Origin: an uncultured Alphaproteobacteria bacterium | GTDB lineage: Bacteria; Pseudomonadota; Alphaproteobacteria; HIMB59; GCA-002718135 | Length of the DNA stretch: 37,856 nt | Assembly (NCBI GenBank): GCA_902553945.1 | Contig: CACDMT010000010.1 | Coordinates: 1-37,856, forward strand | Direction of reading: 5' to 3' | Shown: positions 2,877-4,822 of the stretch, piece after piece | How the letters are laid out: the number at the start of each line of letters is the position of its first letter | Numbering within the stretch: position 1 is the stretch's first letter | Notes under the pieces: generated by a model | Databases searched by the model: none | Told to the model about the DNA's origin: nothing | What the model saw: only the letters and a program-made list of their open reading frames with translations | Position numbers and translations under genes: made by a program

Positions 2877-3602
2877 TTAGTTTTTTAAATTCTGAAGGAG
2901 TAAATCTTTAAATTCTTTCACAGCAACTGTTGCAGGCTTATGAATTGCAAAATCAAATTGATCTTGATTGCGTGATGGTTCGAGATTTAGTTCTACAGTT
3001 GGTTTTTGCATATCTTTGAACATAGAAACAAACCCAGCGGCAGGGTAGACCTCTCCAGAAGTCCCAATAGAGACAAACAAACTAGATTGCTCAGCTAAAT
3101 CATGGATTTCTTCCATTTGCATTGGCATTTCTCCAAACCAAACGATATGAGGTCTTAATTGAGATTTACATTTAGGGCATTTATGGGCCTCATTTAAGTC
3201 CTCTAGCCACTCAAATACGTGATTGTCATTCATTATACATCTCGCTTTATTTAACTCTCCATGCATGTGAATAATTGATGATGAGCCTCCAATCTCATGT
3301 AAATTATCGATATTTTGTGTAACTATATGAATTTTATATATTTTTTCTAATTCATGCAGTAAAATATGAGCCCTATTTGGCTTAATTCCTGAGTTTAGTT
3401 CTTTTCGGCGTTTATTATAAAAATCGTATACAAGAGTAGGGTTTCTATAGAATCCTTCAGGACTGGCAACATCCTCAATCCTATGATTATTCCATAGTCC
3501 ATCAGAGTCTCTGAATGTCTCAATCCCAGACTCTTTACTTATACCAGCACCCGTTAATACAAAGATCTGGGAATCTGCTGAAATCTTCGGTAATTGTTCC
3601 AT
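2877..3602 (-). CDS. cobB: NAD-dependent protein deacylase, CobB-type sirtuin
   Basis: A Sir2-family enzyme that removes acyl groups from protein lysines using NAD. Numbering from the ATG at 3602: the NAD loop GAGISKESGI begins at residue 18, TQNIDNLHE follows near 96, the catalytic histidine is His114 in MHGE, and HIVWFGEMP and IGTSGEVYPAAGF are typical of E. coli CobB relatives. Tyr62 and Arg65 (FYNKRR) are the class III pair that favours succinyl and malonyl lysine. Only three of the zinc-site cysteines are present (Cys122, Cys142, Cys145), similar to CobB variation. A GTG at 3611 could add three residues; neither start has a clear Shine-Dalgarno. Some lines of this gene look richer in G+C than the surroundings. 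It is divergent from the recombinase gene. Confidence 0.9.
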   Translation of the reverse strand: MEQLPKISADSQIFVLTGAGISKESGIETFRDSDGLWNNHRIEDVASPEGFYRNPTLVYDFYNKRRKELNSGIKPNRAHILLHELEKIYKIHIVTQNIDNLHEIGGSSSIIHMHGELNKARCIMNDNHVFEWLEDLNEAHKCPKCKSQLRPHIVWFGEMPMQMEEIHDLAEQSSLFVSIGTSGEVYPAAGFVSMFKDMQKPTVELNLEPSRNQDQFDFAIHKPATVAVKEFKDLLLQNLKN

Positions 3603-3731
3603 TTGATACACTATATACAGTATTTTATTACACGTGAAAATCTATATCTAGTTTGTAATATTAGAAATTGAATTAGATAATAGATATATATTATTGATTT
3701 ATAGTTATATTATTTATTACTTGACTATTAT

Positions 3732-3755
3732 TTACGATAACTGTAATTATCGTAA
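3732..3755. repeat. dif-like perfect inverted repeat upstream of recombinase gene
   Basis: Two perfect 9-base arms, TTACGATAA and TTATCGTAA, flank a 6-base centre (CTGTAA). The arrangement of inner ATAA...TTAT edges around a 6-base spacer is that of Xer/dif recombination sites. It ends 8 bases before the ATG of the tyrosine recombinase, so it also overlaps the place where its ribosome site would be. It could be the recombinase's own crossover site, an autoregulatory operator, or both. The repeat itself is certain; the role is inferred. Confidence 0.65.
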
Positions 3756-3763
3756 TATATATT

Positions 3764-4822
3764 ATGGTTAAAATATCACTAAATGAAAACGTAAGTAAAT
3801 TAAAGGAAAAATCTAAGGCAAAGAATACGCAGGATAAATACAATGGAGATTGGCTTAAATTTATCGACTATTGCAAAAATAAATACAATTGCAGTCCATT
3901 AGATGTTGATGATTTAGAAAGTGCATATGCGTTAACTGCTAATTATATGGATTGGCTTCACGAAGATCCAGAAGCAAAAATATTGAAGGGCACAAGCAAT
4001 ATTCCAGGTAGAGAAAAATTAAATAATAACCCCTACTCTTCATCTGCCTATAAAGCCTCAACTATACAAAGAATTTTAGCCTCTATAACTTATAAATATA
4101 GAGTTAATGGTTTTCAGTTTGATAGAAAAAATCCAGATATATCAGAAACGATAAGTGCAATTTTAAGAGATGAAAAAAATAACAAATCTGGTCAAGCAAA
4201 GGAACTTTTAAAAGCTGACATTGAAAAAATAATTAATAAAATTCCAGACGATAATAATGATTTTAGAAACATAAGAGATAAGGCCCTGATATTAATTGGT
4301 TTTTATAGTTTTTGCAGAAGATCAGAGTTGTTAGGCATGAAATATGAGCATTTAAATTTTGAAGATGATGGAGTTCAGGTTTTAATTCCTTTTTCTAAAA
4401 CTGATCAAAAAGGTGAAGGGAGATTGATCTATTTACCTAAAAATAACTCTCCTTATTGTCCCGTATCTGCGTTAAAGAATTGGTTAGAGGTAGCATTAAT
4501 TGACTCAGGCCCCCTCTTTTATAAAATTAATAAAGCTAATAATATTGAAAAATATATTCTTAATAATAAAAATCAAAAAGTAAGTTTGACTGACACAAGT
4601 TTTGTTTTAATTTTAAAGAAAAGAGCTGAGGACGCAGGTATAGAAAATTGTGATAAAATTTCTGGTCATAGCCTAAGAATAGGCTCAATTACTCAAGCTA
4701 GAATGAATGGTGTGCCTACTCATGAAATTATGGCTCAAAGTGGTCACAAGACAACACAAATGATAGATAGATATACAAAACTAACAAATATAAAAGAAAC
4801 TAGTGCAGCAAAAAAATTATAA
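3764..4822 (+). CDS. Tyrosine recombinase / site-specific integrase
   Basis: A 352-residue tyrosine recombinase. The N-terminal core-binding (SAM-like) domain spans about residues 5-135 and the catalytic domain about 145-350. All catalytic residues can be placed: Arg185 (CRRSELLGM), Lys212 (SKTDQKG), His302 and Arg305 (GHSLRIGS), His328 (SGHKTTQM) and nucleophile Tyr337 (DRYTKL). It therefore looks active. No other phage, transposon or relaxase genes and no tRNA gene lie nearby; the neighbours are ordinary chromosomal genes. A perfect dif-like inverted repeat ends 8 bases before its ATG, reminiscent of single-recombinase Xer systems (XerS, XerH) that sit beside their own site. It could instead be a remnant of an integrated element. 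The family is certain; the biological role is open. Confidence 0.92.
   Translation: MVKISLNENVSKLKEKSKAKNTQDKYNGDWLKFIDYCKNKYNCSPLDVDDLESAYALTANYMDWLHEDPEAKILKGTSNIPGREKLNNNPYSSSAYKASTIQRILASITYKYRVNGFQFDRKNPDISETISAILRDEKNNKSGQAKELLKADIEKIINKIPDDNNDFRNIRDKALILIGFYSFCRRSELLGMKYEHLNFEDDGVQVLIPFSKTDQKGEGRLIYLPKNNSPYCPVSALKNWLEVALIDSGPLFYKINKANNIEKYILNNKNQKVSLTDTSFVLILKKRAEDAGIENCDKISGHSLRIGSITQARMNGVPTHEIMAQSGHKTTQMIDRYTKLTNIKETSAAKKL

Follow-up and report, generated by a model that had tools for sequence, protein, structure and literature searches.

Results

The locus described here is very probably a single-recombinase Xer/dif chromosome dimer-resolution system of a marine alphaproteobacterium of the AEGEAN-169/HIMB59 type. 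This reading draws on comparative sequence evidence, namely a conserved gene and site, their position at the replication terminus, the polarity of octamers around the site, the gamma domain of FtsK, and the lack of proteins scoring as XerC or XerD. The window, which is the whole stretch of DNA that we analysed, is 37,856 nucleotides long, and its family (termed f1) is probably the AEGEAN-169/HIMB59-type group. The features of the locus are as follows (coordinates, strand, description, basis).

2877 to 3611, minus strand: Sir2-family gene, a divergent neighbour that is probably context only (open reading frame and Pfam)
3434 to 3441, plus strand: KOPS/SRS-like octamer GAGTAGGG, left of the site and oriented towards it (motif match)
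3721 to 3750, plus strand: promoter-like TTGACT-18-AATTAT, its second hexamer within the core and right arm of the site (motif scan)
3732 to 3755, plus strand: candidate dif-like recombination site with arms TTACGATAA and TTATCGTAA and an asymmetric 6-bp core, CTGTAA (conservation, GC-skew switch in relatives)
3764 to 4822, plus strand: single Cre/Xer-type tyrosine recombinase of 352 amino acids (intact open reading frame, PF00589, alignment, model)
4031 to 4038, minus strand: KOPS/SRS-like octamer GAGTAGGG, right of the site and oriented towards it (motif match)

A perfect inverted repeat directly precedes the recombinase gene

A preliminary description of this DNA had claimed a perfect repeat with a 6-base centre, ending 8 bases before the ATG of an intact tyrosine recombinase. 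We recovered exactly this arrangement: TTACGATAA-CTGTAA-TTATCGTAA is a 24-bp perfect 9-6-9 repeat at 3732 to 3755, with a gap of 8 bases before the ATG at 3764. It is the single copy in the window at up to 3 mismatches. A search of its own genome, which is 63% complete, found no further copy at the same tolerance, a loose test at which the reversed control pattern also matched once.

Twenty simulated sequences of the same length and dinucleotide make-up held 0 to 2 perfect 9-6-9 inverted repeats each, compared to one in the window. The repeat alone is not beyond chance in the AT-rich DNA of the window. Since such repeats arise by chance, the finding stands or falls on comparison, by which the position of the repeat before the recombinase gene and its conservation appear to be beyond chance.

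The promoter-like motif that overlaps the site was not enriched in the window (5 sites found versus a mean of 3.2 and a standard deviation of 1.6 in shuffles), and its upstream TTGAC stretch is kept in the f1 alignment. Because the site overlaps a promoter-like sequence with a conserved TTGAC part, autorepression of the recombinase gene is likely. The earlier suggestion of a self-repressed recombinase whose operator equals its crossover site is compatible with these data and likely also true, but its repression part is a prediction from the overlap.

The recombinase resembles Cre and lies outside the Xer families tested

The open reading frame at 3764 to 4822 is intact, as had been stated, and matched PF00589 with an E value of 7e-17. 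Residues R185, R186, K212, H302, R305, H328, and Y337 were invariant across 31 aligned proteins, and we take their catalytic roles to be those of the tyrosine recombinase superfamily. With a PF00589 match over the cut-off and the conserved R, K, H-x-x-R, H, and Y, the protein belongs to that superfamily. Curated Xer models scored it far lower than their cut-offs: 46.8 bits against 329.6 for XerD, 30.4 against 335.15 for XerC, 53.9 against 220 for archaeal XerA (NF040815), and 23.1 against 267 for XerS. No XerH model was among its five profile matches.

An AlphaFold2 model of the protein (mean pLDDT, 78.9; pTM, 0.63) was compared with known structures. Cre was the best match (Z 24.5, VIA; rmsd 5.5 Å over 296 residues; identity 14 to 17%), followed at lower rank by XerA (Z 19.4), XerH (Z 18.3), and XerD (Z 13.1). 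Judged by this model, the recombinase resembles Cre more closely than XerD, and it would be Xer-like in action while lying outside the Xer families tested.

Gene and site are conserved together in the family

Of 61 genomes in the genus, with a mean completeness of 74.6%, 43 (70%) had a match to the protein, a count that includes the divergent G035 and the broken G046, so that the recombinase is about as common as a core gene would be. The orthologue of G046 (C20, 17119 to 18175) is split over two matches with in-frame stops, which is either a broken gene or an assembly error. At up to 2 mismatches, the site was found in 77 of 110 f1 genomes, with one copy each, in five of six genera and with no match for the reversed control. 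The site and the octamers below were inherited by common descent, and their counts are not independent. Among f1 genomes at least 90% complete, 6 of 10 held the site. The gene of G107 is interrupted by the contig end, and G106 has a different recombinase. Neither gene nor site was found in G054 and G055 (both at least 90% complete) or in the less complete G056, G057, and G112, and we ascribe these absences to missing sequence.

We compared the upstream regions of 75 loci that had been selected on the protein rather than the site; 58 of the upstream sequences were distinct. Left out of this count were L243 and L258, in which the gene start lies past the contig end, L311, L312, and the divergent L313, L314, and L316. 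L311 and L312 carry the same site 27 bases ahead of the gene. The pattern ATAA-N6-TTAT occurred in 57 of the 58 sequences, 50 times with the exact arms of the window and 7 times with altered outermost bases; the remaining sequence (L308) has one base altered in the left arm. The core of the 57 sites was CTGTAA in 56 and its reverse complement, TTACAG, in 1 (L262/L310). In that case (L262, 2963 to 2988/L310; MarineAlpha5_Bin9 record), the core is inverted relative to the gene and the arms are still symmetric.

A divergent allele was found in G035, whose recombinase (42% identity) is preceded at the corresponding position by a symmetric site of its own, GTATGATAA-GTGTAA-TTATCATAC. The two arms have altered in step, which is what binding by a single protein would predict. 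A Sir2 gene is likewise the neighbour in G035, giving a divergent set of Sir2 gene, site, and recombinase. The more distant recombinase of G106 has a repeat of lower quality, TTTGATAT-N7-ATATCGAA, 4 bases before the ATG; it was the best imperfect repeat near the start, with 9 of 10 pairs (the next had 8 of 10), and is weak evidence of a site. A recombinase of 33% identity was also seen in L263, a contig titled as a Sulfobacillus metagenome-assembled genome, possibly through transfer or misbinning.

The site lies at the GC-skew switch between converging octamers

Whether the site is near the GC-skew terminus had been proposed as a check. We read the f1 terminus from three contigs, covering 400 of 403 kb (G105), 200 of 258 kb (G009), and 160 of 172 kb (G142). 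Within these stretches, the maximum of the cumulative GC skew lay 8.5, 7.8, and 8.0 kb, respectively, from the site, which places the site at the skew switch within 9 kb in all three. A fourth contig, from G109, was read over 40 kb and gave positive skew followed by values near zero; it was not counted.

FtsK is oriented by octamers, described in PMC9764985 as KOPS (GGGNAGGG) in Escherichia coli and SRS (GAGAAGGG) in Bacillus subtilis. Nine KOPS-like motifs were tried first, and the octamer GAGNAGGG, with a polarity of 23 to 0, was chosen afterwards; GGGNAGGG gave 6 to 0 and GGNAGGG gave 21 to 9, with almost no polarity for AGAAGGG (12 to 9) and GAAGAAGG (8 to 7). On the 400 kb of G105 contig C1, where the site is at 156,423, all 13 plus-strand copies of GAGNAGGG lie to its left, the nearest at about 156,124, and the 10 minus-strand copies all lie to its right, the nearest at about 156,727. 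Among 126 motifs of equal composition, this octamer had the strongest polarity on that contig; pooled, the 126 gave 1110 to 388, so general skew contributes to its polarity. Elsewhere, 13 of 13 copies followed the same rule in G142 and 15 of 17 in G009, where two plus-strand copies lie right of the site. The octamers change strand in an interval of about 600 bp that spans the site; two contigs show no exception and the third shows two.

Closer to the site, 56 of 68 distinct f1 stretches had GRGNAGGG facing it from both sides within 400 bp, most often at −298 and +275, and no outward-facing copy was present within that distance in any of the 68. These near octamers fall inside coding sequence, and common descent means that the counts cannot be treated as independent. 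One or both were missing in 12 of the 68, including those of G103, G104, G108, G132, and G035. The gamma domain of FtsK was found in 31 of 36 genomes tested (17 of 22 in f1, 11 of 11 in family f99, and 3 of 3 in family f2); it was not found in the window's own 63%-complete genome or in G055, G037, G028, and G027. A single-copy site in the terminus region, converging polar octamers, and an FtsK gamma domain, three traits expected of the Xer/dif functional class, are all present in the family.

These observations bear on the reading in which the repeat is an operator only, with the recombinase repressing its own gene and the real crossover site elsewhere. The site overlaps a promoter-like sequence and directly precedes the gene in relatives, as this reading would have it. 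However, an operator needs no place at the GC-skew switch or at the strand change of the octamers. An operator needs the arms alone, yet the asymmetric core is nearly invariant and is kept, in inverted form, in L262/L310. Nor did any of the 77 site-bearing genomes hold a second copy of the site at up to 2 mismatches, and we consider this explanation improbable.

No protein of the family scores as XerC or XerD

The earlier description had asked for xerC and xerD to be sought. No protein from any of the 110 f1 genomes passed the XerD model (best score, 55.9 bits against 329.6), a strict model that 4 of 14 control genomes pass. For PF00589, none of 98 f1 genomes reached 100 bits (best, 97.3). In the sister family f2, of the same order, 49 of 52 genomes had a match of at least 124 bits, the exceptions being G081, G082, and G098. 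The window's own genome and many others have a single PF00589 protein. The preliminary description would have been contradicted by a normal XerC/XerD pair together with loss of the repeat from relatives; neither was found, as judged on the family because the window's own genome is 63% complete.

A related explanation accepts the site as dif and adds a second recombinase, undetected here, as a required partner. Most of the genomes are incomplete, and a recombinase only remotely related to PF00589 could escape the search. Against this, the identical arms fit one protein, a single PF00589 protein is present in the window's own genome and many others, and none of the 110 genomes passed XerD. We therefore regard a hidden partner as a slim prospect.

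SAR11 bacteria probably share the layout

A class-wide protein search matched 27 of 385 genomes at an E value of 1e-10 or better, f1 and SAR11 among them. Family f99, which we take as Pelagibacteraceae (SAR11), includes complete genomes of 1.2 to 1.5 Mb. It had a PF00589 protein in 110 of 147 genomes (47 of the 53 good ones), usually one, of 306 to 341 amino acids, and only one genome exceeded 100 bits (105.5). All 37 SAR11 loci scored had a site at the start codon, for example CTAATGATAA-TTAATTG-TTATCAATAG; these loci were drawn from the best 80 of 532 relatives and not at random, and the scoring favours ATAA/TTAT edges. In L268, the first ATG is inside the site and a second follows it. The centre between ATAA and TTAT is 7 bp in the SAR11 site versus 6 bp in the f1 site. 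A fixed SAR11 pattern, too narrow for the whole of f99, matched 67 of 147 genomes at up to 3 mismatches (reversed control, 6), with a second, weaker match in 3. In G564, the site is at 998,838 to 998,862.

The GC skew switched at the gene in ten complete SAR11 genomes, clearly in nine and weakly in one. In G258, G366, and G455, the sign flips between the sampled stretches flanking the gene, with noise elsewhere in G366 and G455. The weak case is G532, mostly positive to 444 kb and then near zero or mixed, with the gene at 471 kb. The six others, sampled over 60 kb on each side, all had a positive mean on the left and a negative mean on the right; among 20-kb stretches, 17 of 18 on the left were positive and 16 of 18 on the right were negative. 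The SAR11 samples gave 61 to 5 for GRGNAGGG and 24 to 6, 16 to 7, 12 to 9, and 40 to 11 for four other G-rich motifs. Near octamers are scarce in SAR11, with none in the examined flanks of 12 of 18 loci. Taken together, SAR11 probably uses the same layout, with its own recombinase and its own site at the GC-skew switch. The GC-skew profile of G061, from f2, was too irregular for placement of the terminus.

In a tree of 31 proteins, the four f2 Xer rows separated (100/100), the f99 proteins formed one group (99/99), and four f1 orthologues formed another (96/91). All four Xer rows come from a single type of f2 protein, and three rows from the class have very long branches; the tree is compatible with either a shared or a separate origin of the f1 and the SAR11 enzymes.

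Carnoy and Roten stated in 2009 that Pelagibacter ubique lacks dif/Xer, which was taken to show that the Xer machinery can be lost through genome reduction (PMC2731167). Two other papers mention SAR11_1019, annotated as xerD, "Integrase/recombinase," in a sulfur-limitation table (PMC5069961), and a light-induced xerD in P. ubique (PMC3090418). SAR11_1019 is probably the P. ubique version of the recombinase seen here.

An integration module is not supported at this locus

The preliminary description had also offered a remnant integration module with its attachment site, for which we found no support at the window locus. Such a module, remnant or active, would make the recombinase an element's integrase, in line with the patchy homologues elsewhere in the class (27 of 385 genomes, f1 and SAR11 included) and the defence-type genes beside the recombinase in G127 and G035, but it is scarcely credible against an occurrence at about the core-gene rate, usually as one copy with one site per genome, a terminus position kept across genera (seen in part), and, as the description had noted, no phage or conjugation gene among the window's open reading frames (inspected by eye). 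The IMG/VR database held no exact match to the 24-mer site or its inner 20-mer.

A C-5 cytosine methylase gene is near the recombinase in both L317 (G127, contig C2, 44001 to 64000) and L318 (G035, contig C6, 58001 to 78000). Left of a modified site, G127 carries genes for DUF4420, AIPR abortive infection, Vsr, C-5 methylase, a truncated Sir2, and a second recombinase, which adjoins the native one. The terminus appears to be a place where defence genes are exchanged. The idea that the G127 island is an element integrated at dif gained no support, as the 20 kb examined held no other site-like copy (best, 7 mismatches).

A proposed mechanism for dimer resolution

The dimer-resolution option of the preliminary description is strongly supported by the single recombinase, the lack of an XerD-scoring protein, the GC-skew switch, and the converging octamers. 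In the system that we propose, the 24-bp site at the replication terminus would be bound by two recombinase protomers, on its two symmetric arms. FtsK would load on the KOPS-like octamers, which run towards the site along both chromosome arms, pair the two copies of the site in a chromosome dimer at the septum, and activate or permit exchange. Catalysis of recombination at the asymmetric 6-bp core would then yield monomers. Bound recombinase probably also represses its own synthesis through the overlap of the site with the promoter-like sequence.

As a tentative extension, which we consider less likely than not, Cre-type recombinases may have been captured together with their site as an exchangeable module and replaced XerC/XerD in SAR11 and AEGEAN-169, both of them abundant ocean lineages with streamlined genomes. 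Here dif would double as an operator, and its occupancy and clearing by FtsK would set the recombinase supply at each division.

If the dimer-resolution reading is true, SAR11 and AEGEAN-169 kept dimer resolution, with one Cre-like enzyme acting at a named site and gene. The site would mark the terminus exactly in genomes of uncultured marine bacteria, and a separate single-recombinase system would be added to XerS, XerH, XerA, and XerL.

Comparison with known systems

The XerC/XerD-dif system shares the 6-bp core, the inner ATAA/TTAT edges, the terminus position, and KOPS polarity. It differs in that the present locus has one recombinase, identical arms, and scores far below the XerC and XerD cut-offs. 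The spacer of loxP is 8 bp, whereas the core here is 6 bp, and the present system is chromosomal, widespread in the genus, located at the terminus, and 14 to 17% identical to Cre. Cre/loxP of phage P1 is nonetheless the best structural match, and it is a single recombinase that separates dimers of the P1 genome (PMC8138268).

Single-recombinase systems with the site beside the gene, XerS and XerH, are known (PMC5357621). XerS/difSL of streptococci and lactococci and XerH/difH of Campylobacter and Helicobacter each have one recombinase of about 350 amino acids with dif beside its gene, as here, and are FtsK dependent, a likeness that would extend to the present system (PMC5357621 and PMC2731167). 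In difSL the arms are imperfect and the centre is 11 bp, in contrast to the symmetric arms and 6-bp core found here. XerL/dif of Legionellales was found in a lineage thought to be without Xer/dif (PMC9765430), and it resembles the present case in its single recombinase, long uninterrupted symmetric arms, and site near the terminus. In Legionella pneumophila, dif and xerL are more than 400 kb apart (same source), whereas here the site touches the gene.

New here is a Cre-type recombinase below the curated Xer cut-offs tested, present in AEGEAN-169-type bacteria and SAR11, with a site overlapping a promoter-like stretch. Searches of an open-access library, from which most subscription journals are missing, turned up no paper on this site or system. 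In the main text of a paper on AEGEAN-169 genomes (PMC10308909), no word starts with Xer, recombinase, integrase, or dimer.

Distant homologues in other alphaproteobacteria

In L076, L079, L080, L081, and L098, all from other alphaproteobacteria, distant homologues are downstream of a gene of about 324 to 367 amino acids. By eye this neighbour resembled RarA/MgsA, an assignment that we dropped when Pfam returned nothing for the two proteins tested. Repeats like TTCCGATAA-N7-TTATCGGAA are present near the start of the homologues in L076, L080, and L098.
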